Assembly (NCBI GenBank): GCA_032622095.1
Contig: CP136068.1
Span: 48,354,443-48,418,442, forward strand
From: Siphonodentalium dalli
Lineage: Eukaryota; Mollusca; Scaphopoda; Gadilida; Siphonodentaliidae
Reading direction: 5' to 3'
DNA: 64,000 bases
Both the position numbers and the translations under genes were made by a program. Below, in pieces: positions 2,790 to 52,459 of the stretch. The notes below the pieces were generated by a model. The model was given only the letters and a program-made list of their open reading frames with translations, did not search any database and was not told where the DNA came from. Each line of letters opens with the position of its first letter. The first letter of the stretch is position 1.

Positions 2790-3450
2790 TGTGGTATATG
2801 CAACGTTGAAACTGTACTAGTAACCATAATGAGGTGTTGGAGGTTACTGTGCTTTATATATCTTTAATACTGCAGTATTAACGGGGGCACTATACTAAGA
2901 GGTGGCCAATTACTTTGAGTATACATGTAGCCATACCTCACACATGGAACAGGGCTTGACTTATTTTTAGGTACATGGAAAAATAGGTACGCAGAGCAAT
3001 ACATAACACCTAGTCTGCTTCGTATATTTTACATAAATATCAACCGATTTGGTGCAGTGTTGAAGCGGTAACCTTTCTAGTACTGCTGTGTTAGAAGTTG
3101 CTGGTGTGAGACCACACAAGCCATATTTCTGAATAAATCCTGAAAAATTACCCACAATCCTGAGGTTAAGTGGTCACTTACTTTGGGCATTACTGTAATT
3201 CCCTGACATTCCCCCAATCTTTGACTAAAAGAAAATTCACCCTTTTGATATCATTTGACCATGAAATGGCCCGAAAAAGATGTTTTATGAGATTTACGTT
3301 TGTTTTTTATTTAATTTTGTTTGTTCAAGTAACATATCAAATGAGTGAAATTTTATTTTAGTCATTCATGTGGGTATTGTTAGTGGGGAGATATTTAAGG
3401 GGAGGTATCCTGTTACAACGGTATATGCTACTAGTATATGTACATAAGTA

Positions 3451-3597
3451 TTAACTGTCATGTGGACTGTTTTTATGGAGATGTAACCGTGAGGTAAGTG
3501 GACATAACTTGTGTAAAACCCAAAGGGTTTTACATACAAGTTATGACCACTTTCCTCACGGTTACATCTCCATTAAAATAGTCCACATGACAGTTAA
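3451..3597. repeat. Long near-perfect hairpin (arms ~71 bp)
   Basis: The arms at 3451-3521 and 3527-3597 are reverse complements with few mismatches around a tip reading AAACCCAAAGGGTTT. The element starts TTAACTGTCATG and ends CATGACAGTTAA. The same hairpin in copy 2 (45912-46051) lacks 7 bp at the tip. Confidence 0.92.
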
Positions 3598-5386: not shown

Positions 5387-6286
5387 AGAGCACATTCATT
5401 TGTTGCATATATTCTGTTGAGTATACAAGGAGATGGTCTCATAAATGGCCGGATTTAGTGTACCCTTTAATGCTTGTAATACATGCATGTACTAGTACCT
5501 GTTTAGACCAAGTTTTCCCTGTCCACAACTTGTGGTATCGGTTGGGTTTATGCTGTTTTGGACCGAGTCCCATCCCGATACTCTTCTATAATGGACTTTA
5601 CGCCCAGAATTGTGGGTTGAAGTTATCTTGATTGTAGCACTACCAGTATTTCGTCAGATTAGGTCAAAGTGACGCTTTTTTATAAGAACATAGAGGGCAG
5701 CCTTTCCCAAGCGTGATGATTTCAAACCTACATATACTTAAAGTAATTGACCATCTCTAACGTGGTGTTACCCAGGTAATGCTGTGGTATTACACTGCAG
5801 TAATTTCCAACACCATGGTAAGGTTGTCACTTGAACACAAAACAGCACCACGATGGATGCGGTATGCAATTAAAATGCAGTGATTCTCCTTATATCTTTG
5901 GAACTTAAAGGAATGGATGGCCTTCGTTATAGGTTATAATTTATAAATAACATTTACAAAAAGTTTCCCAAGAATATACTAATAGTATAGGATAATGTTC
6001 ATATGAATGCGTTATTATCCACAAAACACACTTTGTGTGAGTCAATCGTTTGTTTATATACAGCAGTAAATAGTGAGCGATAAGTAAAACACTCAACACC
6101 GTTGCGATTGTTTAATTGAGCGATTCATGGTGACCCATTCAACACTTCAAAATCTTGAGAGGTTATAGAAGAGTAGCCGGACAGGACTCGATCCAAAACA
6201 GTTTCAACTGCAGTAATGCTCTAAGTAATCAACTCCTGAACCACAGCAGAATTATGGGTAACTTTTCAGGATTTAGTTGGAAATAT
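5387..6286. other. Copy-1-specific spacer between homologous blocks
   Basis: About 900 bp with no counterpart in copy 2. No coding exon is recognised. It ends inside the left arm of a foldback element (6211-6423), where homology to copy 2 resumes. Confidence 0.8.
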
Positions 6287-6423
6287 GGCTTGTTGCCATT
6301 CATCGGAAAGCTCTCAGAGAGCTTTCTGATGAATGGCAACAAGCCATATTTCCGACTAAATCCTGAAAAGTTACCCATAATTCTACTGTGTTTAAGGAGT
6401 CGATTATACTCTGGGCATTACTG
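6211..6423. mobile_element. Palindromic MITE, Tc1/mariner-like ends
   Basis: The element starts CAGTAATGC and ends GGGCATTACTG, followed by TA. The two halves are inverted copies of each other, meeting at ~6312 in 'aaagctctcagagagcttt'. A complete relative at 48130-48313 is flanked by TA on both sides. CAGT-type ends at TA sites fit a non-autonomous Tc1/mariner-type element. There is no transposase. Confidence 0.8.
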
Positions 6424-7096
6424 TATTCGATATCTCAAGCTGTTGCATACCGAAAAGACTTGGGCTAGTACCTGAACAGTAAACCTGCAATCTGCATGAT
6501 TCATGAAACAGCTATTGAAACCATGCTGTATATACTTAGAATTACACAATTTTGTTTATGGGTTTGTTGATATGACACGAGTGCTAGCGCACAATGACGG
6601 AATGAACAGCACACCCTAGAGTTCTATCTTTCCTCAATGGCACAAGTGCTGTATCAACAAATCCATTAATACAAGTGTCTTTCTGTGTTTATTACACATC
6701 ACCCGTCCTAGAATATGTGCATTTAAAAATACAGGGTTACGATGTTTATTAAGGCACATACAGTGCTTGTTTTGTCATGTGTGATGAATTTTTATCCTAT
6801 CGTTTGAACTGGATACTCAAATAACAGAAATTGTTATATATTATTTTTGCAACCGACAGATTTGAGGTAACTCTTTCTATAAATATATTGAAAATCATGT
6901 GTCGGGATGTAATATTAGCAATCAATATATTTTTTGTTGCGTATATAGGTTTATACAATTTTAAGAGGCAGAACAAGATACAGGTACTTTGTATAGTTTC
7001 ATTTCGCGAATGTACACAGTATCTTGTTTGGCCACTTGCAATTTTAGAAACCCATAACTGTAACGAGAAATTGTTGACTGTATATTTAAAGTTTAA

Positions 7097-7588
7097 AGGT
7101 ACGGGAGGACTTGGCGGTGGGTATGCTGTGAAAATATTTCCACCGGTCAAAAACCGCCACAAACAGAAAGAATATTAAAATGCAGACAGACTTTGTCCGT
7201 ATACAAATAAGAAATATCGCATAAACAGTATGTTATTGTCATATGTTTGACCATTCTTATGTAAACAAAAGCATAAAAAGGTACTTTCCTGGTGTTTGTT
7301 TATATTATGATGGTAAACATAAAGAGCGTTCATTGTTGCTGAATTTTGATATGGAACGAATAAAGAGCATTTATATCATTTGTGTGTGATTAGCCAGTAA
7401 CACTGTGCTGCCTTCTGTAACACAATCAGGCTCCTGCTTAGGTAAAATATAGTAGGTCTTTATGATAGCATGCTGTTTACGCGATGGTCATGTTTATATG
7501 AACAAAACTGTATGCGTTTTAATGTTTTTCTGTTTACGGTGATTGAAACAAATATGAATATTTTCGACAACTAAGGTCTCCCGTGCCT
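7097..7588. mobile_element. TTAA-flanked inverted-repeat element (Kolobok- or piggyBac-like)
   Basis: The ends are AGGTACGGGAGGACTT (left) and the inverse of AGGCACGGGAGACCTT (right), each bordered by TTAA (7093-7096 and 7589-7592). TTAA duplication is shared by piggyBac and Kolobok elements. The AGGCAC-type end resembles Kolobok MITEs as I remember them. No transposase reading frame is present in the 492 bp. Confidence 0.7.
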
Positions 7589-7599
7589 TTAAGCCCCCT

Positions 7600-8218
7600 T
7601 ATTGTCTCTATTTTTATATTCAGAATAAATGTCAATTGTATATTTTAAAACACAATTGAAATTATATATTAATTTAAAATTAAATGTTTTTCATAATTAA
7701 GAATTGTTTTCTAATATATCTTTCCTAATTGGGGAAAATATTCCTAGTTAAGAAAACTTGTTTTCCTCACTTAGATTTATTTTCCTGCTTGAGAAAATCT
7801 CATTCTAGAAAAAATTGGCATCACTTAAGAAAAAATATCTTGACGATATTTCTTACTATAGAAAATATAATTTCTTGTTCTAGATTAATTGTATAGCTTT
7901 CTTAAATTTCTAGCTATTCTCCCAAGATAATCGCAGTATCTTAAACTTATCTTATTTCAAGAAAAATAAACTTATGTGAGAAAAACAATCTTTCCTACAT
8001 TAAGAAAAAAAATCTATACTAAGATTTTTTTACTAGGATTTTCTTACTAAGATTACTGTGTTTTCTTAAAGAAATTTTCTCAGACAAGAAATTATCCCAC
8101 CCTTTCATTTCTTGACCTAGAAAATATGTTTTTCTTATTTTTCTAGCTATTCTCCCAAGATAATATCTCATTTCAAGATTATTTTTTTCCTGAATTGAGA
8201 AAATATTTTTGGCAGTGT
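7600..8218. mobile_element. AAGAAAA-rich element ending in GGCAGTG
   Basis: This stretch is very AT-rich and full of alternating 'ttcttaa', 'aagaaaa' and 'ttctagc' phrases. It ends in TTTTTGGCAGTG at 8218. The inverse of this end (CACTGCCAAAAATA) starts a related AAGAAAA-rich stretch at 37687, so it is a recurrent terminus. I could not find the opposite end. Confidence 0.55.
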
Positions 8219-8796: not shown

Positions 8797-10500
8797 GTGT
8801 TATTGTCGTAATATTTCGGCTTCAATTAAATATTTACTTAGAGCTCTGCTCAGTTGTTTATCATTAGATATGAATATTTCTTGAAGCTTTTGGCGTTCGT
8901 CTAACACATCGTAATTTGATATCACATTCTTCTCGTAACTGCTAAAGACTTGCCTGGGACTGTGGTACTTAGGGCAGTGTAATAACAAGTGAGACTCATC
9001 TTCAATATGTTTATCTTTAGCGTGAATATTATAATAATAATAATAATAAATAGTTTTTATATAGCGCTTTATCCCATATGGCCCAGAGCGCTTATGACTA
9101 CATTGTTTGCAAGTCCGTTCCTATACGGGGATTGGATTAGGTTTCACATGTCTGCCTATTTCTATTTCTAGCTTGTGCGAGCTTGTAACAAGTTTCGATA
9201 TTGGACGTCTTTCATTTCGAGATAACGTTGTTAAATAAGAAGCCCTTGTTTCAAAATATGTTTTGATTTTTTGCCATAAATTCTAATTGACTTTTTTGCA
9301 CATGCACCTTTTATATCAAGGTGCCTCCATGCTTGTCGGAAATGGTCTTGTAATCGGGATTGAAATTTCTCCCCAAAAGTATCTATGTTGACCGATTTTG
9401 GTGATTCCCACACGTACCCAAATCCATATTTATATAAGTTATTTGTAATACACTGTAACCACTCATTATCCGCATAACAAGAAATCAATTCTAAACATGT
9501 ATAAACCAATCGTTTCTCACACAAAGTGTTAGCTCGAAGCCAATAGAGTATCATGTTCCTTAATACAATGATATAGATCGGAAATCTACCCATTTCGGCT
9601 CGTACAGCCATATTAGATGTGTTCCTAAATAATCCCAAAATTCGTTTACAAAATTGTATGTGGAATTTTTCGGAAGGAACCTCCATTTCGTTTAAGTATT
9701 CGTCTAGACGCCCAAGAAGAATGCTGGCATACATTTTCCCAAGAACACTAGTTAATGTCAGACCCCGCATCTGGTCCGGGGAATTTGCATTATTACATTT
9801 TGGAATAGCAACAACTATGCCTTCAGTCCATTTGCTGGGTATATGTCCCTTACTAAGAACCAAATTAAAAAGACGTGTTAACAGTGGGAGAGTATATACT
9901 TTAGAAGCTTTCAGCATTTCTGCGTTAATGTTGTCAGGGCCGGCCGATTTTCCGATTTTTAAATTACGCAACGCTTTTTCAACATCTTCTGTAGATATGT
10001 CATAATCAGGCTGATTATTGGAGGAGATATTTTGTTCCATGTCAGATGTACCATGGATGTTATCAGAAAAATGGTCACCGGTGTCGTCCGTTTTCTGTCC
10101 GAGATTTTTATAGGGTTCGTAGAGTTCAACGGGGCTAACTGATTGCGACATTTTATTTGAATTAGAGGATTCGCGATCCAATTGTTTAACTAGCGCCCAG
10201 TATTCCTTCGGCTTATTGTTTTGCATGTGTACCAGTTGCCCATATATATTACTCCGATAATCACCACGTTTCCTTTTTATGAGTTTTATATTGACGTTTT
10301 AGCGAAAAATAATTTTCCCGGACGACTGGATCATAGTGCTGAGCATTAAGTTCCCGTGCACAAAGCTTCAATTGTTGTTTCTTTCCACGACGAAAGTTAC
10401 ATCACATGGAGCTTGTGTCCATTTATTTGTGCTGCCTTTCCCGATGTTGTGAGATTGATAATGGGTTATAGGATCGTCGCCCGGGTTTAGTTTCTTGTTT
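8797..10500 (-). pseudogene. LINE ORF2 reverse-transcriptase remnant with internal deletion
   Basis: This is a decayed non-LTR retrotransposon. The main open part (9231-10226) shows the N-terminal reverse-transcriptase blocks: a GKSAGPDNINAEMLK motif, a GHIPSKWTEG stretch with IPK, and RGLTLTSVLGKMYASILLGRL. It then jumps in frame at about 9680 to the post-RT region (FHIQFCKRILGLFRNTSNMA, then GRFPIY). The catalytic palm including the expected (F/Y)xDD box is absent. After a single stop at 9231 the frame continues (QRYLEMKDVQYRNLLQAR). It is then split by a ~140-bp insertion (about 9023-9165) and resumes as DESHLLLHCPKYHSPRQVF down to ~8800. Upstream of 10226 a frameshift near 10270 separates further LINE-like sequence (RELNAQHYDPVVREN). 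The type resembles the Jockey/RTE-X-like LINEs of marine invertebrates. The clade is a guess. The element cannot encode an active enzyme. Confidence 0.9.
9023..9170. repeat. Short dispersed repeat inserted in the LINE
   Basis: It begins with an AATAATAAT microsatellite (about 9031-9050) and contains 'tttttatatagcgctttatc' and 'cagagcgctta'. These are hallmarks of a common short dispersed repeat in marine invertebrate genomes. It interrupts the LINE C-terminal coding region. Confidence 0.6.
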
Positions 10501-14070: not shown

Positions 14071-15036
14071 CGAGTAAATGCAAGGACAGTATGGCCTAAA
14101 ACTTGGTCCAACTTTGCGTGGTTTTAGACAGTTTTGTTTAAACGTTTCAAAGGCCCATAACAACAGTTAATATGGCATTTGATACAAATGCTTGATGGCT
14201 TAAGCTCGTAAACCCAAAATAGCTCCCAAACCATGTACATACCAAAGTCGAAACCACATATATCGGTTTCGTAGGCGAAAACGGACACATGAAGGGTGGA
14301 TGCCAACCCACGGCAATTGCTCAATCAGGTCTTCGTCAAGTTAAGCTAAAAATGCACCAAAAATGCTCGAATCCTCGTTGGCAGATCAATGAATCACCCT
14401 TGCGCCCAACGAATCCCGCGATCGATTACGGCGTGTGTTCCAAAGTAACAGAATGACAACCGTCTAATATGTACACTGTATACCGGAGATTGCGTTGATC
14501 AGGAATTAATTTTACCACTTATAATTGTGTGCTGTAATTATGACAAAACTTTGCCGAAAAACACAACAATAGCAACATTTGAAAGACTAAACAAAGCAAT
14601 TCAAACATCAAAAACCACAACAGAAAAGTATTCATATATCAGGCATATATATTCAAAATTCACGAGCGTTGTCGAAAGTTTTTTTTTATGATGAGTGTGT
14701 TGTCGAGGACATGTTTTGCGTTTCCTTTGGTGAATATCCTACCATTCTTGTGATACTGATTCACGAAATGAATTTACTTAGGAAAATTGGAATCAAATAA
14801 GTCTTTCAACTATAACATTTCATGAACTGCACACAGAGCCAGTTAGTGATTGTTAATAAGAGTCATACGTTCTTAATCGTTGCCACGATTTTACAGCAAA
14901 GTATAACGAAGAAATAAATCATGGTTCAGACTATGCTCGAACAGCTGAAGCGACACCATAAACCAAACCAAACCAAACTATACTACACTAGTTGAATAAG
15001 TGTCGCATTCACAATCATGTTGATTTGATTTTTCAG

Positions 15037-15258
15037 TCCAATGTCCTGTTTGGCAGGGATATATGTCTCAGAATATTTCTGGGAAGATTTTCTGCTGGAA
15101 GTTTTACTCCGATAAGTCAACTCACACTGAGGCGGAAAGCACGTGCACTCTTGATGGCGGCCATCTCATTTACGTGCCCGACAGCGTTACGCATCAACTT
15201 ATAGCGAGCCAACTCACAACTTTGAACGTGCTACCCGCTTCACCAAATTGGAAAGATC
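15037..15258 (+). CDS. C-type lectin domain gene, exon encoding the N-terminal half
   Basis: This is an internal exon bounded by a pyrimidine-rich acceptor (TTTGATTTTTCAG ending 15036) and a GTGAGT donor at 15259. Its 222 nt encode 73 whole residues between two phase-1 introns. It begins QCPVWQGYMSQN and continues KIFCWKFYSDK, THTEAESTCTLDGGHLIYVP and HQLIASQLTTL. This is the classic first half of a CTLD: the CP.W start, the FCWKF strand, the AE..C helix with GGHL, and the following helix. Extracellular carbohydrate or protein recognition is the family role. The ligand cannot be predicted. The exon ends just where the WIG-like strand should start, and the exon at 30216 supplies exactly that with the same splice phase. 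Upstream exons (signal peptide or membrane anchor) were not found with confidence. Confidence 0.85.
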
Positions 15259-15311
15259 GTGAGTATACAGTATCACACTGGGTGAAGTGGTCATGTTATT
15301 GTGATATGGGC

Positions 15312-15746
15312 CGGATTCGTCATCTCAGGTTTAAACCTGGTCTACGTAAGCCTCTAGGTTTAAACCGCAGTGAGTCGGCTAAATATGTGGTTTAAACCCG
15401 AGACTGCAGGTCTGAGTGACGCATTCGTCATCTCTGGTTTAAACCTGGTCCAGACCAGTGGTTTAGCAATAGTGTCTCTGTATCATCGAGATAATTAATT
15501 GTACTTTCCTAATGCGGACCGACTCGTTTTGTTGCTTGCGAAAATCAATAATTACGACAGCGAGCATATTTTGATTGGAAATGTATAAGCGAGAAGCACT
15601 CACACCTACAAAGCGTGTGAGAATAAGTTTTTGTCAATTTCGAAATTTTGTTGCGTTTTATCAGCTTAAACCGGCAACTAAACCATCTAATTCGGCGGTC
15701 CAGCTAAACCAGCTTTACCAAGGGTAAACTTGAGATGACGAATCCG
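15312..15746. mobile_element. Inverted-repeat MITE rich in GTTTAAAC
   Basis: The ends are CGGATTCGTCATCTCAGG (left) and the inverse of CGGATTCGTCATCTCAAG (right). Internal 'ggtttaaacc' palindromes repeat several times, and a second left-end-like copy lies at ~15424-15450. It belongs to the same family as the larger element at 27474-29537. No target duplication is evident. Confidence 0.7.
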
Positions 15747-27911: not shown

Positions 27912-28591
27912 CACTGTCGGATACCCGTTTAGGTTCGGACATTCCAAGATGGCGGCGCCCAGTAAAGAAGATAAATATTTATCGTTTTTTTTTTACGAAT
28001 AGAAGATAATCAATACGCACAAAAACGCAATAAGAAAGCGATTGCACCTCGGCATGTCACTTCTATGCGAGGTTTTTGATGCGTCCGAACCTGAACGAAA
28101 TTTGTCCGAACCCGAACGAAAATTGTGTCTGAACCTGAACAAAATAATCGGGAATATTGCGCATCTGAACCTGAACATTTTGAAATTTTCAAAGGTCGTT
28201 TTTCGGAGTTAGACAATAAAAATATCGCCGGTTTTGCATTCCGAAGATGTGTGGTAACCTAATCTACCCACAACAACACATAAATTTGCGGATCCATGAG
28301 CCCAGGGCCAAAACAAATACGAAAAAGCGAACATTTCGCCGCCTCGATAAAATTTCGAAAAATTATGACGACTTGACACGCCAAATACAACAATTCACAT
28401 GCCTGTCATGCGAAAGGCGTGTTACGTAGGTGTTGGGCATACAAATTCCTACATAACTGTTTAAAGGTGTATCACCGAAAGATGTCGTTAATTGATGCTT
28501 GGAGACAATATAATTATATACTTACCGTTTATCTTCTTTACTGGGCGCCGCCATCTTGGAATGTCCGAACCTAAACGGGTATCCGACAGTG
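27912..28591. mobile_element. CACTG-ended element with 64-bp perfect inverted repeats
   Basis: The inverted repeats at 27912-27975 and 28528-28591 are identical over 64 bp, starting CACTGTCGGATACCCG. TATAT flanks both sides (27907-27911 and 28592-28596), compatible with a 3-bp TAT or 5-bp TATAT target duplication. Inside, at about 28082-28175, a motif like GTCCGAACCTGAACGAAA recurs four times. The same motif (GTCCGAACCTAAAC) is part of the terminal repeat. CACTG ends, a 3-bp duplication and subterminal repeats would fit the CACTA/CMC group, while a 5-bp duplication would point elsewhere. Perfect ends suggest recent insertion. It is non-autonomous (680 bp). Confidence 0.85.
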
Positions 28592-29537: not shown

Positions 29538-30190
29538 TTAAATCACCATTGGCTGTACATTTCCAACATAAGGGGGTTACGTTGGAAATTGCCAAACGTT
29601 GTTCATATTGAAGTACCATTTGGAAAATTCTAATCCAAGGATATGAGCAAATGAGATTTTCCAAAGTTAGAACTTTTGATATTGGTGTATAGTCTTAATT
29701 TCCAAGGTGTACACCCGCAATGGAGACCGTCTGATAACGTACCTGGCTTTAACCGATAAAATATTATCAAAGGTTAACACATCTCAACCTGGGCAACGCC
29801 GGTTGACACTGCTAGTGATTAATATACTATTTAAACCCACTTTCAAATTTAGTGTTTCAATGTGATGATACAAACATGTCTGTATATTCCAGTGGTATAG
29901 TATTGGTGACTGCAGTCTGGTATTAGTAGTGGTACTACACATAACTATGACTCTATCACCCTATGACTATTGAATCACAACATGCATGTGTGGTTGCTCC
30001 AATACTCGCCAAGTTCGGTCATATTAATTTTCAACAGCAACCGACAACGAAAAAGTCCACCGCCGTGTCCTACGTCAGAAACGATCTAACCATTCCATTC
30101 CCTGGATGAAGCAAGATTAAATTTAGATGTGTTTCATATAGACCATAACTGTCCAACCCAAAGAATCATACTTCCGTTCCCCAACCAATA
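29538..30190. other. Intron end, nothing recognised
   Basis: No repeat family or coding signature is evident before the acceptor at 30215. Confidence 0.4.
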
Positions 30191-30215
30191 TACATGCACC
30201 TTCATTGCATTGCAG

Positions 30216-30430
30216 AAACCATTTGGATGGACGCGAGAAGGCTCAACTTAACTTCACCGTGGATGTCCTGGAGGGACGAGGTGACATGGGTTCCCTGGTA
30301 TAACGATCATTCACACACTGATGGAGAGAACTGTGCGTTTGCAGTAGAGTGGGGTGATTACCTGTATGAAGACATGGCGTGTGGTGGATCTACACAAGTC
30401 AGCTTTGCGTGCCAGATCGAAGTTAATTGA
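30216..30430 (+). CDS. C-type lectin domain gene, terminal exon encoding the C-terminal half
   Basis: The acceptor TTCATTGCATTGCAG ends at 30215, and the exon runs to TGA at 30428-30430, entering in phase 1. It encodes TIWMDARRLNLTSPWMSW, then VTWVPWYNDHSHTDGENCAF, AVEWGDYLYEDMACGG and VSFACQIEVN. These are the second half of a CTLD: the WIG-like strand, the long-loop W, the ENC cysteine, the penultimate cysteine (MAC) and the final FAC cysteine. The usual calcium/sugar motifs are altered. No EPN or QPD is seen before ENC, and the WND position reads YED. Canonical calcium-dependent sugar binding is therefore doubtful, and another ligand is possible. The protein ends five residues after the last cysteine, so the CTLD is C-terminal. 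It continues the exon at 15037-15258 in the same phase. Confidence 0.88.
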
Positions 30431-34170: not shown

Positions 34171-34369
34171 CAAATCTTGTTATAATCTTTGAAGATTGAC
34201 ATTGAATGTTATGGATTTTAGATTCCTAGCTGAAAATAGCTAATCACTATCGCCAAGTTATGGGTTAAACATCTGCCGATCGTAATCGGCCTCTCGTTTT
34301 AATTTGGCCACAATATTTCTCGATCCAACGCGAACACTGTATACAAAACACCTTACCAATGACCATACA

Positions 34370-36152
34370 CACAGTGGATCAACGGACACAAACGAAAACC
34401 GGAAGTCGTAGAGTTCGAGGCGAGGAATTTGTGTTTGCCGACACTGTCTGACACCGTTTTTCTTCTAATAAACACATTTAGACACCAATTCTGAACAGTG
34501 AATATTTCGTCACTAATATTCGACCCGCGGCGATCAGTTATAATCAGTTGTCAGTGCTTTATCGCGGAAAAATATGCAATATAATCATCGCCGCGCGACG
34601 ATTTGTTCCACAAGAAAATGTCAATTATCACAATCATCTCAACAACTTTTCGCCACAACCGTTATATCGATCGAAGCGCCTGTACTCCTCCCACATATAT
34701 TGAGTATTGTCATGGAATGTCTCAGTATTCCAATTTTCCACATTATATACAGGTACCGCTTCGAAATTACTGTCCGGTTAGTCCAAAACATTCAATCATT
34801 AGTCGCTAAATATCTGTCCGCTTAGTCGTGATTCAATTGAAGAGTACCATCTACAATTTATGGTGGAATAAACTCTTTTTCGCAGATTATAAATGCCCTT
34901 CATTATATTTTTGCGTGGCGATGACGGTTATGGATCTTTATATTTCCCCGGCTACAACATGGTCTTTAAGCGGTGTCTTATGCACGCGACACTGAAACTG
35001 ATATCCAATCCTGAAGTCTGACCATGGTCAGTTCTAGATATTTCTGAATCATAATAGACTGATTAATGTGTCATTGAAACTTAATTTGACGATTAAGGCA
35101 CAAGAAAAAGTTTACATAAAAATTATCCAAAGAAAAACAATCAGGAGGGGACTAAAACTGGTATATGATGGGGTGTGTATACTTGTATAGCCATTTTATA
35201 TTGGTCCAATTTCCAGTGCAAGAAAAAAACAGTATTTTGTTATTCCAGGTGATATATACTTGTGACGAAATGCCCACATATTTTCATATGTGACCGTTGT
35301 GAGACACAGGCTGGTGGTTTTTCTGAGGCAATTGGCCATGGAATTCTATAGCATCCAAGTGAACGTTTGTAACTAAACTTTCGCGTAACAAATCAGGAAA
35401 ATACCACCAAAATTGTATGGACACTTCGTCGTGGAGGATGGTGTATGATAGGATAAGAGTCTATCAGACTTGTTCTGTTTTATTTATTATGATTATTATG
35501 ACTATGACTATGTTGTTTGGAGAGAAAAAATGAGCAAAATGTGTTCGGTAACAAAACTAAAACAGCATACTCTTTGCAACAGAGAAAATGTTGGCCAAAT
35601 GTGTCAATTTTGGCGAAAGGCAGCCAACGAAATAACCCAGTTCGACACTGGGGTGAACACCAATAACTGTCCACCGGGTCTGGTCGATCGCGACTAAATT
35701 TCGGGGTGTACAGGACAAACCGGACAGTAATTTCGAAGCGGGTACCTGTAAATAAATTGGAAATTTGGAATACTGAGACATTCCATGACAATACTCAATA
35801 TATGTATTTGTGGGAGGAGAACAGGCGCTTCGATCGGTATAATGGTAGTGGCGAAAAGTTGATGAGATAATTGTGAAAATTTACATTTTCTTGGATATAT
35901 TGTGGAAGACATCGTCGCGCGGCGATGATTAAATTGCATATTTTTCCGCGACAACTGATTCTAACTGATCGCGGCGGGTCGAATATTAGTGACGAAATAT
36001 GCACTTACCTTAAATTGTTCAAAATTGGTGTCTAAATGTGTTTATTAGAACAAAAACGGTGTCATAAAGTGTGTGCAAACTTTGACAACACAAATTCATC
36101 GCCTCGAACTCTACGACTTCCGGTTTTCGTTTGTGTCCGTTGATCCATTGTG
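34370..36152. mobile_element. Transib/RAG-type inverted-repeat element, non-autonomous
   Basis: The left end starts CACAGTGGATCAACGG and the right end is the inverse of CACAATGGATCAACGG. The first ~50 bp of the two ends agree at all but about two positions, and looser inverted homology extends ~430 bp into each side (to ~34795 and from ~35697). The element is bracketed by an exact 5-bp duplication, ATACA (34365-34369 and 36153-36157). Terminal CACARTG heptamers with 5-bp target duplications are the signature shared by Transib transposons, ProtoRAG elements and V(D)J signal sequences. An ACGAAAACC stretch, one base from the RSS nonamer, lies 15 bp after the left heptamer. The ~0.9 kb centre has no transposase-like frame (the one at 35470-35697 is unremarkable). 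Confidence 0.8.
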
Positions 36153-36599
36153 ATACAGCTCTTCCAGGTATACAAATACCCTACACACGGCCATTTATAC
36201 CTTCCAGACTTGCAAAAACATCATTCGTAATCATATATTAACTTTGTGAGAGAAAACTGCATTAGTTCTGGTAATGTCAGTGGTTAAAATAGTAACTATT
36301 AACCAAGGTGTATCAGCAACGTTAGTATTCAATGTATAAGGCATATAAGTCAATTATGTCTTATAGTATCAACCAAAACCTGTAACTGATTACACGGCGG
36401 GCTGGGGCAATATTTATACTCCCTTGGCATCTTGGTGTTCAGTTTGAGTCAATCTGCGGTGAAATGTTATACCGTATTATGTAAACTTAAAACTTTGAGA
36501 GATCGGAAGGGCCTGCGACCCACATAATGGCATATTCCATTGCTCCAATGATCAGTTAACATAAAAGATATATAATAAATGCGGGTTGCAGTGTGCGGC

Positions 36600-38639: not shown

Positions 38640-41265
38640 TCAAACCGATGGTATTTCTTCAGAGTTGACTCTCTTGTATTATGAAAGCAAGCCCAATGAG
38701 GCCATGCACCTATTGCATGTTTATAACACACAAAAGACTATATCTTAGCAGAATGCATGTCTCTGATGATACAAACAATAAAATATCCAATTTATCCATA
38801 GTTGAATTTCATTTGGCTATATAGGAAAGCATACAATGTGGCTTTTATTTAGTTTCCACAAAGTATTTTAAGTAAAATATCCATCAAGTGATGTATTCTG
38901 CCTTGTCCTATATATTAAAATGCATGCAATGGCCATGAGAAATGCTTAATTTATTGGTAGAGATGTCAATCAGATAAGAAATACTGACATTTTAGGTTTG
39001 ATACACCATTTCAGCTGGCTTGGCATCTTTTAAATTTGGAACCTAAGGGAATTTATTCAGCTTTGACTCTCTAAATTATGGAAGAAAGCCCAAATGAAGC
39101 CACTATTTGCATGTTAGTAACATGTATAAGGCTATATCTCAACAGAATACATGTCTCTGATAAAATGCACAATAAAATATCAATAGTTCAATTGCATTTG
39201 GCTATAGAGGGATGCATACAATATTGGTTTTATGTAGTTTCCACAGACTATTTTAAGTAAAATATCCATCAATTGATGTTTTCTACATAGCCTTGTATAT
39301 TAAAATGCATGTAATGACCATGGAAAATGTTTAATTCATTAGTTGATAGGTCCATCTGATAAGAAATACTGACAATTGAGGTTTAAAATACCATTTCATG
39401 GGATTATGGGATCATAAATATCAAACTAAGGGAATTTCTTCAGATTTGACTCTCTAAATAATGGAAGAAAGCCCAAATGAAACCACTATTTGCATGTTAA
39501 TGACATGTATAAGGCTATATCTCAACAGAATACATGTCGCTGATAAAATACACCATAAAATATCCATAGTTTAATTGCATTTGGCTATAGAAGGATGCAT
39601 ACAATATTGCTTTTAAGTAGTTTCCACAGACTATTTTAAGTAAGATATCCATCAAATAATGTTTTCTACCTTGCCCTATATAGCATAATGCACGCAGTGA
39701 CCATGAGAAATGTTTAATTTATTGGTAGAGATGTCCATCTGATAAGAAATACTGCCATTTGAGGTTTGATACACCATTTCAGCTGGCTTGGCATCTTACA
39801 AATTTGAAATAAGGGAATTTATTCAGCTTTGACCCTCTAAATTATGGGAAAAAAGCCTAAATTATGCCATTATTGGCATGTTTATAACATATATAAGGCT
39901 ATATCTGAACAGAATACATGTCTCTGATGAAATCAACAATAAAATATCCATAGTTTAATTTGTTTTGGCTATACAGGGATGCATACAACATGGCTTTTAG
40001 GTTGTTTCCACAGACTATTTTAAGTTAAATATTCATCAAATGATGTTTTCTGCCTTGTCCTGTATATTAAAATGCATGCAATGACCATGAAAAATGTTTA
40101 ATTTATTGGTAGAGATGTCCATCTGATAAGAAATACTGCCATTTGAGGTTTGATACACCATTTCAGCTGGCTTGGCATCTTACAAATTTGAAATAAGGGA
40201 ATTTATTCAGCTTTGACCCTCTAAATTATGGGAAAAAAGCCTAAATTATGCCATTATTGGCATGTTTATAACATATATAAGGCTATATCTGAACAGAATA
40301 CATGTCTCAGGTGAAATAAACAATACAACATCCATAGTTTAATTTGATTTGGCTATACAGGGATGCATACAACATGGCTTTTAGGTTGTTTCCACAGACT
40401 ATTTTATGTAAAATATCCATCAAATGATGTTTTCGGCCTTGTCCTGTATATTAAAATGCATGCAATGACCATGAAAAATGTTTAATTTATTGGTAGAGAT
40501 GTCCATCTGATAAGAAATACTGTCATTTGAGGTTTGATACACCATTTCAGCTGGCTTGGCATCTTACACATTTGAAATAAGGGAATTTATTCAGCTTTGA
40601 CCCTCTAAATTATGGGAAAAAAGCCTAAATTATGCCATTATTGGCATGTTTATAACATATATAAGGCTATATCTGAACAGAATACATGTCTCAGGTGAAA
40701 TAAACAATACAACATCCATAGTTTAATTTGATTTGACTATACAGGGATGCATACAATATTGCTTTTATGTAGTTTCCACTGATTATTTTAAGTAAAATAT
40801 CCATCAAATGATGTTTTCTACATTGCCTTGTATATTAAAATGCATGTAATGACCATGGGATATGTTTAATTTATTAGTTGATATGTCCATCTGATAGGAA
40901 ATACTGACATTTGAGGTTTTAAATACCATTTCATGGGATTATGGGATCATAAATATCAAACTAAGGGAATTTCTTCAGATTTGACTCTCTAAATGATGGA
41001 AGAAAGGCCAAATGAAGCCACTATTTGCATGTTTATAACATGTATAAGGCCATATCTTTGCAGAATGCTTTTCTCTGATAATAAAACAAATAACATATCT
41101 ATATTTCATAGTTTAGTTGGCAAAACAGGGTGCATAACATGTGGTTTTAAAGTAGTTTCACAGACTATTTTAACTAGAATATCAATTAAATGATGTAATC
41201 TAACTTGCCCTGTGTTTTAAAATGCATACACTGACCATGATAAATGTTTAATACAAACACCGTCC
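38640..41265 (+). repeat. Satellite array, ~384-bp unit, about seven copies
   Basis: The phrase 'ttga(c/t)..tctctaaa' recurs near 38665, 39063, 39446, 39831, 40215, 40599 and 40983, giving periods of 398 then 383-384. Units carry 'aaggctatatct.aacagaat', 'ttggctata.agggatgcata', 'ttccacagactattttaagt' and 'ggtagagatgtccatctgat'. Units 4-6 are nearly identical. Units 3 and 7 share variants not found in 4-6 ('catgggattatgggatcata'). The small frames within it are not genes. Confidence 0.92.
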
Positions 41266-42600: not shown

Positions 42601-44153
42601 GTCAACCTGATAGAATTCCCACAATCTCTTTAATATTGTCATGCCATGGCCAATTTAACACTAAGTGAACGTTCAGATTACCACGATACAATCGTAAGTG
42701 GAAATATTTCTGTCGTAGGAAGTAACCGCTCAACTGTGCATGCTCACCTCAAAATCGTAGGTAAAAAATAATATCATGCACTGTTTTATTTAAAAGCGAA
42801 ATTGTGGCGTATCCTTGGTTATCCCCATTTGCGACGTAATCACTAATCAGTCATGTGTATGTAAAAATTGTGGCCTGAAGGATCGCATGATAGTCAATCA
42901 CATGCTTTACAAAAAAACTGTGATTTCATCATACATGTGTACGACATCGTAATCATGTGAACAAACTATCCACGATCTCGTCGATCCCGGTTCCTCCACT
43001 TAAGATTGTATCTTTCATCTGTACGTTCACTGAGTGAACATTCATGATTCATATGACTACGATTCAATTGTAAGTGGACAGATTCCCATCTTGGGTAATA
43101 ACCGATAGTTGGACTGCGCATGCTCACGACATGATCACGAGTTATATCAATGCAGAATTGCAAAATTGTGACGTATCCTTGGTTACCTCCACTTGGTGAA
43201 ATTTGCGTGTACGTAAAAATCGTACAAAGTAAATGGAAATATCATAGGATAGTTAATCACGTGGTTAACCACCGATATTAAATATACTCATCTGCGATGA
43301 CATCGTAACAAACTATCCATGATTTTGTCAGGCCCGAATCCTCCACTTACGATTGAATTATGGTCTTCTGACATCTGAATCGCCGAAAATGCTAATATTA
43401 TTGGAAGAATGAACTTTACACTTGTTTTTTGAATATGTTTGCAAATTATGAAAATACATGCATCCATATCAAATATATATGTACATGTATTTTTTCTTCA
43501 ATTACAGAAATACCAGATTCATTAGCCATGGTGGATGCGGCATCATGCCCTCTCATCTTCAACATATGAAGATTGATTTCGCCCATGATTAGTCTTAAGC
43601 GTCGGTCCTGTCTAGCTAGACACGTGGCAATGAACAAATGACAGGTGAAATATCACTGGAAGTCTGTTCGCCAAAATACCAGTGGTGAGTTTATATCTAT
43701 AGCTACCATGCAGATGAATATTTGTACATTGTCACCAATACATGTATATACCGCTATCCTCAAAATTATGGACCTTAAAAATGGGGGGGGGGGGCAGGGG
43801 GGCCGGAAAAAAAACTGCAGACACAGGGTGGAAAAAACTGTTTTCTTCGGTTTGGGTACCCCCCCCCCCCCAAAACAGCAAAAACTGCAGTTTGTTTCCA
43901 CTGACCATTTGCCCCCCCCCCCCCCCCAGAAAAATCAAATCTACCCCAGCCGGACAACAACTCGGTTTGACCGGAAACCGAAAAAAACACCTGAGCATAC
44001 AATTCACGAGAAGGTGCTTGGTAACTTAGTTTAGATTATTATGACTAAAATGGTCATTGTCTACCAGTAGAACGCAGATTTGTACCTCGTGATGTCATGA
44101 CATGTACAAACATGTATATTGGTGATCGCAACGCTATGTATGCACTTTAAAAA

Positions 44154-44486
44154 ATGACAACTAGTCATTACCTCGACTTTGAAAAATCTGATGCAAATGA
44201 GATGAGTGAGATACCAGCATATAACTGTTTTCTGATACCATTGGAGGAGAAATTGTTTAATACATGGGATAGTTCTGCAGTAAAAATTTGCCAGATAAGC
44301 GATCGCAGGGTAGAATTCTGCAATCGACTGGTAGACACTGACATAGTTGGCATTATTAAGAGGGTTAATGGGGTCAATATCACATGTAAACCAAGACAGT
44401 GGTTATCCAAAATTGTTTTATGTGGATTGTACTACTCATGTATATATGATTTGGATATTAAGGTTAATCCATATTCTATAAAATGA
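44154..44486 (+). CDS. Hypothetical 110-residue ORF, intact in copy 2
   Basis: The frame runs from ATG 44154 (context AAAATGA) to TGA. It starts MTTSHYLDFEKSDANEM and includes IPAYNCFLIPLEEKLFNTW, VKICQISDRRVEFCNRLVD and NITCKPRQWLSKIVLCGLYY. I recognise no family, signal peptide or clear membrane segment. The copy-1 version differs by a whole-codon indel, one replacement, one synonymous change and a stop. The in-frame indel is mildly in favour of coding. The minus strand is open over 44168-44410 in both copies, which argues for caution. It may be a single exon, a transposon remnant or chance. No expression signals could be assigned. Confidence 0.35.
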   Translation: MTTSHYLDFEKSDANEMSEIPAYNCFLIPLEEKLFNTWDSSAVKICQISDRRVEFCNRLVDTDIVGIIKRVNGVNITCKPRQWLSKIVLCGLYYSCIYDLDIKVNPYSIK

Positions 44487-45102
44487 GAGAAAATTGAAGT
44501 TGTGAGTCTGAAAATACATATTTGGAATTTTTTTTACATGCAACCCCCCCTAAAGGAATAAGGACAAAATTTTACGTGTAAATTTTTTACGCCCAGGTAC
44601 CCCCCCCCCCCCACCCCCGGTACGTTGTGTCCCGCAGTTTTTTTTCCACCGGGGGGGGGATACCTGGTAATGATCGCAGTATATGATATCCACCACGGTA
44701 TCAAGTCGATTACTGTTGTGGAGCACCATGCAGTTATGATACACCAACAAATATCACACCAAAAGTTGAAAATTAAAACAGCCACATGCATCTTGTTCAA
44801 TGAACTTATATATGCATGAATAAGATGAATCACTAAATTATATTTTCATGCTTGTTTGTGTAATGCCAATCAATGCAGCCTGACAACATGGATGGGTGGA
44901 GTTTATAAATTGACAGCCGAAACAATGTTGGCAACTTCAAAGTTCATTATGTGCTACATTTAACCCCCGTATATACAATACAATTTTTCTATCAGCGTTC
45001 CCATGTCCTATATTTGGAGTACTATATACATATACATGTAACGAATGCCATCCGTTCCACAGATATGAGGAAAAACACTGCATTTTATTTTCATGCATGC
45101 TA

Positions 45103-45234
45103 AACATGACAACATGCATATGGGGTGTAACATGACAACATGCATATGGGGTGTAACATGACAACATGCATATGGGGTGTAACATGACAACGTGCATATA
45201 GGGTGTAACATGACAACATGCATATGGGGTGTAA
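45103..45234 (+). repeat. 26-bp minisatellite, 5 units (copy 2)
   Basis: Same unit as 2624-2789, one unit fewer and without the 10-bp internal duplication. One unit has 'acgtgcatata'. Confidence 0.95.
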
Positions 45235-45911
45235 CTGCGGTATATGCAGCGTTGAAACTGTACTAGTAACCATAATGAGGTGTTGGAGGTTACTGTGCTT
45301 TATATCTTTAATACTGCAGTATTAACGGGGGGGGGGTACTATACTAAGAGGTGGCCAATTACTTTGAGTATACATGTAGCCATACCTCACACATGGAACA
45401 GGGCTTGACTTATTGATTCTTAGGTACATGGAAAAATAGGTACGCGGAGCAATACATAACACCTAGTCTGCTTAGTATATTTTACATAAATATCAACCGA
45501 TTTTGTGCAGTGTTGAAGCGGTAACCTTTCTAGTACTGCTGTGTTAGAAGTTTCTGGTGTGAGACCACACAAGCCATATTTCTGAATAAATCCTGAAAAA
45601 TTACCCACAATCCTGAGGTTAAGTGGTCACTTACTTTGGGCATTACTGTAATTCCCTGACATTCCCCCAATATATGACTAAAAGAAAATTCACCCTTTTG
45701 AAGTTTTGATATCGTTTAACCATGAAATGGCTCGAAAAAGATGTTTTATGAGATTTACGTTTGTTTTTTATTTAATTTTGTTTGTTCAAGTAGCATATCA
45801 AATGAGTGAAATTTTATTTTAGTCATTCATGTGGGTATCGTGAGTGGGGAGATATTTAAGGGGAGGTATCCTGTTACAACGGTATATGCTACTAGTACAT
45901 GTACATAAGTA

Positions 45912-46051
45912 TTAACTGTCATGTGGACTGTTTTTATGGAGATGTAACCGTGAGGTAAGTGGACATAACTTGTGTAAAACCCTTTACATACAAGTTATGA
46001 CCACTTACCTCACGGTTACATCTCCATTAAAATAGTCTACATGACAGTTAA
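45912..46051. repeat. Long hairpin, copy 2, with tip deletion
   Basis: Counterpart of 3451-3597. The tip reads 'gtgtaaaaccctttacatac', 7 bp shorter, with the loss exactly at the apex of the palindrome. Confidence 0.92.
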
Positions 46052-47858
46052 TCCTTATATTTATATATATTTAGCGAAAAAGCCACTTTTGTAAATGTAT
46101 TTAAATTGAATAGTGTATCGTGACAAAAACAGCCCAAAGTACCCAATAGCACCCTTGGCAAAAGTTAATAGGAACAATTTCTCTTCATATTGCAACCAGG
46201 TGATTTATTAAGTCAATCCTGCGCGAGTCCAAATGCGCCCAAAACATTACGCGTTCGTCTTTCCAAACCCAATGACCGTTGACGTATGGATGGTGTTGTG
46301 AGCTTGGTGTTATGAGCCGTTGCGCATTCACCGAGAAATAACTGCAACTAGCCACGTGGGCGCGGACCAATCAGTATGCTGGATTTAGTGATGACAACAC
46401 TTAGTGTGTAAATATATGTATTTGTAGCTGATTCTGACCAACATGCAGCGTTTGAATGGATAACAATACTGTTATAACTGCCCCCCCCCCCCCGGTGATT
46501 AGTTTGGACCGTACATCTTAATAATATGTACATGATTAGTCATTCCGCTTTTCTGATGTCATTACAAGCATTCAAATCTTATTTTTCAGACAGGAGGAGC
46601 TGCCTGATTGGATTGAGACATACAAATTTCATTCAAGGCCTGATATCTGATAACCAATCATAGAATCATGTTTCCTGAGTGTTTCTTGCAGATAATGATT
46701 ACACTTGATACCAATATTATTAATTCTGTCCAAGACTGGATGAGGAAGGATTTCAAATGTTATTCGGTGTACATGTAACGGATACATGTAATCTAGATGT
46801 TATCGGTATTCGTCCATGCATGACATAATGTGAGTTGTTGCTTTGTGACAGTCCTGGCTATATACATGTACCATATGTATACCAATGAATGGTATGCACT
46901 GAATCCAGTACTGTGCAGTGTGCAGCGAAGGGGAGGCTTTAATATATAACCAAATGATGACCAATGTCTTCATCAAAGGCAAAAATGACACATCCATTCC
47001 TTCCTTGATGGAGACCGATCAGTGACGTCTACATTTTATCAGACTTAGTGGTGAAAATCTTGGCAAGTGAAGTTAGTGAATTCAATTCTACAACATACAT
47101 GTACATGTACATGTATGCTTCTGTATGTACCTGTATGAGTCTCAGAAAATGTGCACTATGGCATCCAGTGTATGCATAACCTTTGTTATACCGTACTTCA
47201 TACTACATTGACCAGAATTTGGAGGTGTACCAGTTTCATATCTCTACACAAAGCACAACAGTACCCATGGATCAGTCTCAAGCCTTGTTCTGAGCTTGTC
47301 TGAAGGATATGAACTTTTAAAGATATATTATGCACTTGTTCTGGTGCATGAAACTGATCAGTTAGTACCAAGGCGCTATGCCAACTGGAAGAAGGTAGCA
47401 TTCTACTAACATAGCCGAAAATCGAAAGCAAATCAACCGTATCACTCCATAGAACACATTGTCTGAACTACGCTCATTTGTGAATATTTACTACTCGATT
47501 CGGGGCGCATCTATCGGCGATAATATAACGAAAACGAGTTCGCCTTTGATAGTTACTGCATTTAATTATGTATACGAATGATGGTGTGTGTTGTTAATTT
47601 GGATATAATATTTGTAAAAAGTACTACTTTGAACAAGATTATTCTCCATTTATATTTTATCACCCTATTGGAGTGTTTCACATCACTTTAAGTGACAAAT
47701 TATTGCAGCATGTCAATATAATCAGATTCATGTACATGTACACACATACAGGCCTTAAAATCCATCACAGAATAAAAATATTCTGATGTTCCTTTATCTT
47801 TGTCAACCTGCTGTATCACCAAGTAATATGTACAAGGAGCTTAATGTGGCTTAGACAT

Positions 47859-48588
47859 GTACCATACATGTACATTTAAAGACAGATAATCCGAGTTCAC
47901 GCTCCTCAATTACCATTTCTTTGGCTTCAGGGGTAAAAATAACTTATTCGAGTTGAGGAACACACCCTTTTAAGTTCTGAGTTAAAAAATATAATTTTTT
48001 GAAATTATTTCCCGGCCTAGCAAATATTCAATGAGTCGATTGACATAATCTTGATACCAAGTTGCGATGAACAAAATGTTGATTTATAACACGTTTTGGA
48101 AAATGTTACACTAGAGTTGACAGTAGTTACAGTAATGCCCAAAGTAATTAACCACTTAACCACAGCCGAATTAAATGGCTTGTTGCCATTCATCGGAAAG
48201 CTCTTGGGGAGAGCTTTCCGATGAATGGCAACAAGTCATATTTCCGACTAAATCCTGAAAAATTACCCATAATTCAGCTGTGGTTAAGTGGTCGATTACT
48301 TTGGCCATTACTGTAGCATTATGTTTTGGTAATTAATTGATTAAGAAATGTTGTTCTTAGAATCTGATGATATGGAGACCATGGAGAGATTGTTTACCTT
48401 TAATTGTCAATGTTGAGTTTAAAGCATACTAGTAACATATGTTATGTTTATTTTATGTATCCCTGCATAAAATGGGGTGATAAATTTATATTATACTCAC
48501 ATCTGGTCTTTCGATATTTTGTGAGTAATTTATATGAAAGAATGGCATTGCATGCTAGCAATTCTGATAAACATCACTGTTAAAATGA
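47859..48588. other. Copy-2-specific spacer between homologous blocks
   Basis: 730 bp unrelated to the copy-1 spacer. It contains a complete foldback MITE (48130-48313) and an inverted pair near 47895-47966 ('cgctcctcaatta' / 'cgagttgaggaac'). No gene. Confidence 0.8.
48130..48313. mobile_element. Palindromic MITE, Tc1/mariner-like ends, complete
   Basis: The termini CAGTAATGCCCAAAG and the inverse of CAGTAATGGCCAAAG are flanked by TA at 48128-48129 and 48314-48315. The two halves are inverted copies meeting at 'aaagctcttggggagagcttt'. It is 184 bp long with no coding capacity. Confidence 0.88.
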
Positions 48589-50554
48589 GGCTTGTTGCCA
48601 TTCATCGGAAAGCTCTCAGAGAGCTTTCCGATGAATGGCAACAAGCCATATTTCCGACTAAATCCTGAAAAGTTACCCATAATTCTACTGTGTTTAAGGA
48701 GTCGATTATACTCGGGGGCATTACTGTATTCGATATCTCAAGCTGTTGCATACCGAAAAGACTTGGGCTAGTACCTGAACAGTAAACCTGCAATCTGCAT
48801 GATTCATGAAACAGCTATTGAAACCATGCTGTATATACACAGAATTACACAATTTTGTTTATGGGTTTGTTGATATGACACGAGTGCTAGCACACAATGA
48901 CGGAATGAACAGCACACCCTAGAGTTCTATCTTTCCTCAATGGCACAAGTGCCGTATCATAAAAACCCATTAATACAAGTGTCTTTCTGTGTTTATTACA
49001 CATCACCCGTCCTAGAATATGTGCATTTAAAAATACAGGGTTACGATGTTTATTAAGGCACATACAGTGCTTGTTTTGTCATGTGTGATGATTTTTTTTC
49101 CTATCGTTTGAACTGGATACTCAAATAACAGAAATTGTTATATATTTTTTTTGCAACCGACAGATTTGAGGTAACTCTTTCTATAAATATATTGAAAATC
49201 ATGTGTCGGGATGTAATTATTAGCAATCAATATATTTTTTGTTGCATATATAGGTTTATACAATTTTAAGAGGCAGAACAAGATACAGGTACTTTGTATA
49301 GTTTCATTTCGCGAATGTACACAGTATCTTGTTTGGCCTCTTGCAATTTTAGAAACCCATAACTGTAACGAGAAATTGTTGATTGTATATTTAAAGTTTA
49401 AAGATACGGGAGGCCTTGGCGGTGGGTATGCTGTGAAAATATTTCCACCGGTCAAAAACCGCCACAAACAGAAAGAATATTAAAATGTAGACAGACTTTG
49501 TCCGTATACAAATAAGAAATATCGCATAAACAGTATGTTATTGTCATATGTTTGACCATTCTTATGTAAACAAAAGCATAAAAAGGTACTTTCCTGGTGT
49601 TTGTTTATATTATGATGGTAAACATAAAGAGCGTTCATTGTTGCTGAATTTTGATATGGAACGAATAGAGCATTTATATGATTTGTGTGTGATTAGCCAG
49701 TAACACTGTGCTGCCTTCTGTAACACAATCAGGCTCCTGCTTAGGTAAAATATAGTAGGTCTTTATGATAGCATGCTGTTTACGCGATGGTCATGGTATA
49801 TATGAACAAAACTGTATGCGTTTTAATGTTTTTCTGTTTACGGTGATTGAAACAAATATGAATATTTTCGACAACTAAGGCCTCCCGTGCCTTTAAGCCC
49901 CCTTATTGTCTCTATTATACATTTAACAATGATATTTACAAAGAAGTTTTTATATTCAGAATAAATGTCAATTGTATATTTTAAAACACAATTGAAATTA
50001 TATATTAATTTAAAATTAAATGTTTTTCTTAATTAAGAATTGTTTTCTAATGTATCTTTCCTAATTGGGGAAAATATTCCTAGTTAAGAAAACTTGTTTT
50101 CCTTACTTAGATTTATTTTCCTGCTTGAGAAAATCTCATTCTAGAAAAAATTGGCATCACTTAAGAAAAAATATCTTGACGATATTTCTAACTATAGAAA
50201 ATATAATTTCTTGTTCTAGATTAATTGTATAGCTTTCTTAAATTTCTAGCTATTCTCCCAAGATAATCGCAGTATCTTAAACTTATCTTATTTCAAGAAA
50301 AATAAACTTATGTGAGAAAAACAATCTTTCCTACATTAAGAAAAAAAATCTATACTAAGATTTTTTTACTAGGATTTTCTTACTAAGATTACTGTGTTTT
50401 CTTAAAGAAATTTTCTCAGACAAGAAATTTTCCCACCCTTTCATTTCTTGACCTAAAAAATATGTTTTTCTTATTTTTCTAGCTATTCTCCCAAGATAAT
50501 ATCTCATTTCAAGATTTTTTTTTTCCTGAATTGAGAAAATATTTTTGGCAGTGT
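48589..50554 (+). repeat. Segmental duplication, copy 2, block B
   Basis: Counterpart of 6287-8218. It starts inside a foldback arm, so 48589-48726 is a MITE lacking its outer left half. It carries the TTAA element (49402-49892) and keeps ~33 bp near 49918-49950 missing from copy 1. It ends at the GGCAGTG terminus. Confidence 0.95.
49402..49892. mobile_element. TTAA-flanked inverted-repeat element, copy 2
   Basis: Counterpart of 7097-7588, flanked by TTAA at 49398-49401 and 49893-49896. The right end is the inverse of AGGCACGGGAGGCCTT. Confidence 0.7.
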
Positions 50555-50688: not shown

Positions 50689-51328
50689 TTGAATAATCCC
50701 ATACTGCGCGGCGATGTCTTCCCACCGATGTTCACCGATAGGTTCGCATTGAGCGTCGCCTCGTATAAACTACCTGGACTATATATAAACCCAGCTGGTG
50801 AATACGACCCCAGTTGTTTTCTTGTGGGCATGACCTCATTGGAAATAGAATAAAATATAAACACCCCTGTCCCAATTGTTTTGGCCCTGTTTATAGAGGA
50901 AACACAGCTTAAGTTTATTTCTGGAATTAATTTGGTTCCCTGCATATTGCGTTGATATTTATAAGACCATGTTTAATTAATTTTATGTTTAGCGTCAATC
51001 GCCGCATTTTATTTTTTTGCAGAAAATAGTAATGAATTTTATTAAATTATTAGCACAATACAATTGTGCCAAAGAGTGTTCCTTGTGAAAATTAAGATAT
51101 GAACATTTAAAACTTAAGTTTAAACCATGGATTAAACGTGCCTACAAATTTGGTTCTTTAGAATATCGTGACTTATCCCGCCAAATGCAACTCCAAAACT
51201 ATTTAACTATTTACCATAGTTGCATTTTTTATTAATTATTATGTTACAAATTCGCGTTCACATGACTAATATAGATATGCCTATATATATATATATGTCA
51301 GAGTTATGGAGGCACGGACTCAGTATGA

Positions 51329-51545
51329 GTGTTCATTGCTTCATATTTGCGTGAACAAATTCTCATTTCTTATCGAAATGGCCATGTGTCGATCGGAATG
51401 GTACATCGAGATGTTCCCCAAACCAAATCAAGCTTGAAACCCGGTCCCGATTTCCATCCATGCCGGGGTTCGAACCCGCGCCAACCTCGTCTAGCCCAAA
51501 CTGTGATGATCTTATCCACGACCTAACCACCTCGGCTACGGGGAC
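51329..51545 (-). mobile_element. tRNA-derived SINE, array copy 1
   Basis: On the minus strand it begins GTCCCCGTAGCCGAGGTGGT (A box TAGCCGAGGTGG). About 55 nt later comes GCGGGTTCGAACCCC (a perfect B box), then an unrelated body ending '...gaacac'. A diverged relative lies at 32988. The spacing recalls a tRNA with a long variable arm. No folding acceptor stem is apparent, so it is not a functional tRNA. Confidence 0.82.
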
Positions 51546-51751
51546 ATCCTTAAAAAGGAAGCCCTATCACCGAGAGTTAGGAAGCGTATCAGTCTGAACA
51601 TGGGTTCGAACCCACTACCTTCGAAATTCTTGATCTGCCATTCTGGAAACATGTCAATGCACTTCCTCCGAAATTGCATTTGTGACCATACGATTACTGG
51701 TACTGGCGTATATATATATGTCAGAGTTATGGAGGCACGGACTCAGTATGA

Positions 51752-51968
51752 GTGTTCATTGCTTCATATTTGCGTGAACAAATTCTCATTTCTTATCGAA
51801 ATGGCCATGTGTCGATCGGAATGGTACATCGAGATGCTCCCCAAACCAAATCAAGCTTGAAAACCGGTCCCGATTTTCATCCATGCCGGGGTTCGAACCC
51901 GCGCCAACCTCGTCTAGCCCAGACTGTGATGATCGTATCCACGACCTAACCACCTCGGCTACGGGGAC
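51752..51968 (-). mobile_element. tRNA-derived SINE, array copy 2
   Basis: Nearly identical to the copy at 51329, with A and B boxes intact. Confidence 0.82.
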
Positions 51969-52172
51969 ATCCTTAAAAGGAAGCCATTTCACCGAGAGTT
52001 AGGAAGCGTATCAGTCTGAACATGGGTTCGAACCCACTACCTTCGAAATTCTTGATCTGCCATTCTGGAAACATGTCAATGCACTTCCTCCGAAATTGCA
52101 TTTGTGACCATACGATTACTGGTACTGGCGTATATATATATGTCATAGTTATGGAGGCACGACTCAGTATGA

Positions 52173-52389
52173 GTGTTCATTGCTTCATATTTGCGTGAAC
52201 AAATTCTCATTTCTTATCGAAATGGCCATGTGTCGATCGGAATGGTACATCGAGATGTTCCCCAAACCAAATCAAGCTTGAAACCCGGTCCCGATTTCCA
52301 TCCATGTCGGGGTTCGAACCCGCGCCAACCTCGTCTAGCCCAGACTGTGATGATCTTATCCACGACCTAACCACCTCGGCTACGGGGAC
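52173..52389 (-). mobile_element. tRNA-derived SINE, array copy 3
   Basis: Nearly identical to the copy at 51329, with A and B boxes intact. Confidence 0.82.
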
Positions 52390-52459
52390 ATCCTTAAAAG
52401 GAAGCCCTTTCACCGAGAGTAAGGAAGCGTATCAGTCTGAACATGGGTTCAGCTTGTAA

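Follow-up and report, generated by a model that had tools for sequence, protein, structure and literature searches.

The 64-kb window, by which we mean the whole 64,000-nucleotide stretch of DNA that was analysed, contains a real, well-bounded element at 34370-36152. Direct reading and self-alignment identified it as a 1783-bp stretch with inverted arms at both ends, each arm ending in a CAC-type tip and each tip abutting the same 5-bp sequence (Table 1). We interpret it as probably one inserted copy of a Transib-superfamily (RAG1-type DDE) transposon, of the cut-and-paste kind and non-autonomous. The termini are the part of the element that points to this superfamily, and both the assignment and the kind of transposase that it implies are probable on that footing.

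Table 1. Features of the element and its immediate flanks (positions within the window)
Feature	Positions	Strand	Basis
Left target-site duplication copy, ATACA	34365-34369		Direct reading; sole repeat length fitting the tips
Left inverted arm, tip CACAGTGGATC	34370-34784	+	Alignment to right arm
RSS-like heptamer CACAGTG	34370-34376	+	7/7 against V(D)J consensus
Nonamer-like ACGAAAACC, 15-bp spacer	34392-34400	+	8/9 match; weak evidence
Central region, no recognisable coding sequence	34785-35712		ORF statistics, Pfam scan
Right inverted arm, tip CACAATGGATC (reverse complement, from 36152)	35713-36152	-	Alignment to left arm
Right target-site duplication copy, ATACA	36153-36157		Direct reading

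Arms, tips and target-site duplication

The two arms (about 415 bp on the left and about 440 bp on the right) aligned over 451 columns, comprising 377 matches, 27 mismatches (5 transitions and 22 transversions) and 47 gap columns. A weaker inverted match extended to 34806/35690 (82% over 474 columns). Conservation was most continuous toward the ends: the outermost 63 columns held 61 matches, 2 mismatches and no gaps, and gaps appeared in every one of the next six 63-column blocks, with the limit that mismatch rate alone did not differ (Fisher p 0.28). The observed/expected CpG ratio was 1.59 in each arm, compared with 0.86 in the middle of the element and 0.88 in the window; a ratio of 1.59 was reached by 21 of 1272 segments of 415 bp, including those that overlap the element. 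In the conserved inner tip of both arms we also noted AACCGGAAGTCG (34397-34408), which we take to resemble an ETS-factor site, and CCGGAAGT at position 30 of each arm. Repeats of GACAC in the arms (four left, three right) were rejected as a feature, given that 21.8% of 2000 random 130-bp stretches held a 5-mer at least four times.

The sequence-only reading had described CACAGTG and CACAATG termini, with the inverted ends bracketed by a 5-bp target duplication, and this description held. The heptamers matched the V(D)J consensus at 7/7 positions on the left (CACAGTG) and 6/7 on the right (CACAATG), and ATACA was found directly outside both tips. When tip offsets from -4 to +4 on each side and repeat lengths of 4-11 were considered, the sole finds were the 5-bp repeat lying exactly at the tips and two 4-bp fragments contained in it, leaving 5 bp as the only fitting length. 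The heptamer alone is unremarkable, because CACWRTG occurs 31 times on the two strands of the 64-kb window. Extended to CACARTGGATC with up to two mismatches, the tip pattern gave 26 matches in the window, below the shuffled mean of 34.9; without mismatches it occurred twice, both times as a tip of the element. What carries weight is that long arms, such tips and a duplication occur together.

Coding capacity, further copies and the surrounding window

The longest ORF in the element was 107 aa, and ORFs of at least 107 aa arose in 32% of 1000 first-order simulations. Among the 26 ORFs of at least 45 aa that overlap the element, 10 were searched against Pfam, and none gave a match above a curated cut-off. 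The only match listed was a weak Colipase-like one in a single ORF, which at 16.2 bits fell far short of its cut-off of 27 (E 0.011) and was set aside. No RAG1L or RAG2L gene was seen inside the element with these ORF and Pfam data. Because coding capacity is no more than expected by chance, the element is non-autonomous, as had been proposed for it. Folding of the central region gave a z score of -0.33.

Beyond the element's own arms, no match better than E 0.9 was detected in the 64-kb window, and the exact tip string was not found elsewhere in it. Exact-pattern scans of viral and prokaryotic contig collections with the terminal strings returned 0 matches, which says little because the collections searched were viral or prokaryotic. 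Distant blastn of the element against phages likewise gave no matches, and among the matches listed by a full-text literature search with the tip strings there was no transposon title.

A second CAC-ended element lies about 6 kb upstream, at 27912-28591 (680 bp), and has perfect 64-bp inverted ends starting CACTGTCGGATACC. TATAT adjoins both of its ends; as this sequence is itself repetitive, the duplication can be read as either 3 or 5 bp. The element may be EnSpm- or Transib-like; its CACTG ends, the possible 3-bp duplication and the CCGAACC repeats in its interior would suit EnSpm rather than Transib. Kinship with the element at 34370-36152 was not shown by alignment (score 11.5, reached by 51 of 300 random pairs). 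Both ends of the upstream element also contain CAAGATGGCGGC, which is YY1-like and holds the reverse complement of an inner motif of ProtoRAG, TR5. At each end this reverse complement, CAAGATGGC, follows the heptamer position at a distance of 26 bp and corresponds to the 9-bp TR5 printed for ProtoRAG (GCCATCTTG, PMC8289069). The spacing of TR5 in ProtoRAG is 27 and 31 bp, compared with 26 bp here, and the orientation is opposite to that of the printed motif. Because of this orientation, and because AAGATGGCGGC resembles a common YY1 site, we treat the TR5 likeness as a lead only.

Several other features were observed in the window. A block of about 8 kb is present twice (232-8218 and 42757-50554), the copies being about 42.4 kb apart and matching over 5217 columns at 94.5% and 1974 columns at 96.6%; a single 32-bp insertion distinguishes them and is not informative. 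On the + strand, 15024-15392 and 30149-30427 are possible exons of a C-type lectin-like gene, the first with a Lectin_C match that does not reach the Pfam cut-off (E 0.013) and the second having no Pfam match and being read as lectin-like by eye. On the - strand, a 355-aa open frame at 9234-10298 resembles, on visual inspection, part of the reverse transcriptase of a non-LTR retrotransposon; Pfam gave no match for it at E 0.01, and relaxing the threshold to E 1 brought up one weak match, unrelated and below cut-off (E 0.17). Satellite-like tandem arrays occupy 38710-41252 (384-bp unit, 6.6 copies) and 51286-52450 (421-bp unit, 2.8 copies). Outside the element, Pfam coverage extended to 16 other ORFs among the 85 window ORFs of at least 85 aa.

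Assignment among transposon superfamilies

We favour Transib because RSS-like CAC tips and a 5-bp duplication fit it, while duplications of 2, 3 or 4 bp and the ends of Ginger2 or hAT elements do not fit the element. Such tips and 5-bp duplications are reported to go together in Transib and RAGL elements, where duplications of this length are typical (PMC4411706, PMC7204232, PMC8355894), and both were found at 34370-36152, the duplication being that of one insertion. A firmer placement would follow the Repbase practice described in PMC4455052, in which non-autonomous elements are classified from the terminal 11 bp together with the duplication length; the present assignment uses the heptamer tips and the duplication length.

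The strongest competitor, which we nonetheless consider unlikely, is that this non-autonomous element belongs to a different CMCT lineage (EnSpm/CACTA, Chapaev or a relative not yet described) and acquired its 5-bp duplication by happenstance. CMCT lineages are characterised in PMC12730594 as having mostly CA..TG termini and duplications of 2-5 bp. Ends of the CA..TG kind are shared by our element with EnSpm/CACTA and Chapaev, EnSpm families with CAC..GTG ends are on record, and the second CAC-ended element in the window fits 3 or 5 bp. However, only 5 bp fits beside the tips of the element at 34370-36152, where lengths of 2, 3 and 4 bp do not. Neither the 3-bp duplication of EnSpm/CACTA nor that of Chapaev, whose duplications are 4 bp, can be read there. 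In addition, the tips are RSS-type heptamers, neither CACTA nor CACTG.

A reading without any transposon, in which an inverted duplication happens to be flanked by a chance 5-bp repeat, would draw on the abundance of other inverted repeats in the window. We listed pairs lying within 8 kb of each other with at least 24 of 30 terminal bases matching, mismatches allowed; the 39 resulting pairs include six inner pieces of the element's arms and the second CAC-ended element. A direct repeat of at least 5 bp flanked two of the 39, the sole two that start with CAC, whereas the other 37 yielded one 3-bp and one 2-bp direct repeat and none of at least 5 bp. In a scan restricted to CAC..GTG ends, the best 2 of 10 pairs had a 5-bp repeat; the reversed-sequence control also gave 10 pairs, 0 of 10 with at least 5 bp (longest, 4 and 3 bp). 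An identical pair of random 5-mers within the window has a probability of 0.0014 (200,000 draws), and the match at 34370-36152 is placed exactly at CAC..GTG tips. These results make a chance repeat around an inverted duplication very unlikely.

Mobilisation by a RAGL transposase (RAG1L-RAG2L, ProtoRAG-like) appears at least as improbable. CAC heptamer tips and 5-bp duplications are common to RAGL/ProtoRAG and our element, and PMC7204232 reports non-autonomous RAGL elements from the pearl oyster as well as from several deuterostomes. The terminal sequences are a poor match, however: the protostome RAGL consensus CACTWMCAAACKTYKBB was matched at 8/17 positions on the left and 9/17 on the right, the 13-bp terminal element of AanRAGL at 6/13, and no TR5-like inner element of ProtoRAG was present in the first 60 bp of the element (best 4-6/9, both orientations). 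The RAG1L and RAG2L genes of those elements were not seen either, a difference that a non-autonomous derivative would also show. The earlier suggestion of a Transib- or RAG-like transposase therefore stands for its first part, with Transib as the best-fitting superfamily by CAC tips and 5-bp duplication. A specific link to RAG or ProtoRAG is not supported, given the terminal mismatches, the unseen genes and a nonamer spacing of neither 12 nor 23 bp (see below). Also very unlikely is an element akin to hAT5 or Ginger2 whose duplication is 5 bp long: hAT families with such duplications exist, but hAT ends are of the CAG/TAG type, and moving the element start to CAGTGG (offsets +2/-2) left no direct repeat of 4-11 bp. 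Among Ginger2 elements, TDD-4 and TDD-5 are on record with 5-bp duplications, but Ginger2 termini are given as TGTNR (PMC2836005), unlike those found here. For IS481EU-7_TV, a 5-bp duplication is recorded in 1 of 11 copies.

Within the Transib superfamily, the element resembles Hztransib of Helicoverpa zea, as described in PMC1852546 and PMC8289069, in its CAC heptamer-like tips, 5-bp duplication, symmetric inverted repeats and long TIRs. The arms of about 430 bp, which had been called unusually long, thus have a precedent, Hztransib having been described with long TIRs (PMC1852546). It differs from Hztransib in that it contains no transposase gene and in that its duplication, ATACA, is AT-rich, compared with GCTCG (PMC1852546). 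Transib MITEs tabulated for two Helicoverpa species are 75-564 bp long with TIRs of 13-57 bp, compared with 1783 bp and arms of about 430 bp here; that tabulation was limited to elements of at most 800 bp, so larger ones could not appear in it (PMC9033116). A GC target preference is reported for Transib, ProtoRAG and RAG (PMC8289069), and GC-rich duplications are exemplified by that of Hztransib and by CCAGG of TransibSU-2_PM. ATACA, with one G/C in five positions, does not show this preference, which is a tendency and not strictly defining.

The nonamer-like block that had been noted 15 bp behind the left heptamer was present in both arms, where ACGAAAACC matches ACAAAAACC at 8/9 positions. 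With both heptamers, this block constitutes the likeness to V(D)J signals; the spacer, 15 bp at both element ends and neither 12 nor 23, is the difference. At other spacers the match fell to 3/9 (12 and 23 bp) and 2-4/9 (20-22 bp), and an equally good block occurred in 1.05% of 20,000 random 45-bp stretches of the window. Hence the block itself was confirmed, but its spacer is not 12, 20-22 or 23 bp, and random stretches match equally at the frequency just given. According to a figure legend in PMC8355894, Transib ends carry the nonamer-like block behind symmetric spacers of 20-22 bp or 12/23 spacers. Such a block was not found at those distances in our element; it is reported for some Transibs and is not universal, and most Transib families are described as having symmetric TIRs like those of Hztransib, with little or no nonamer similarity (PMC8289069).

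Proposed transposition and its implications

By analogy with Hztransib, the terminal inverted repeats of the element would be bound by a RAG1-like DDE transposase whose gene lies at another place in the genome; cleavage would fall immediately outside CAC at either tip and generate hairpins on the flanking DNA. The freed ends would be joined to the target with a 5-bp stagger, and repair would then copy ATACA to both sides. For Hztransib itself, PMC6941560 describes cleavage beside CAC, hairpins that form on the flanking side, and joining with a 5-bp stagger.

Taken together, these data suggest that the element is, with high probability, a passenger DNA transposon of an ordinary kind, and a probable further member of the Transib-type passenger elements, not a novel type of system. 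Taken alone, the find does not alter any open question. There is a slim chance that a RAG1-type transposase is active or was recently active in the host, moving elements with ends of about 430 bp into AT-rich targets, and that more than one CAC-ended, 5-bp-duplicating family is present. If so, such families would provide natural substrates for the study of how RSS-like ends diversify. The element would matter more if the host is a mollusc; in one survey covering mollusc genomes, the count of Transib transposase elements was just one (PMC10294476). If the element is a Transib, it would add a long-armed passenger to a superfamily thought to be ancestral to the antibody-gene recombinase, and its autonomous partner could then be sought in the same genome.
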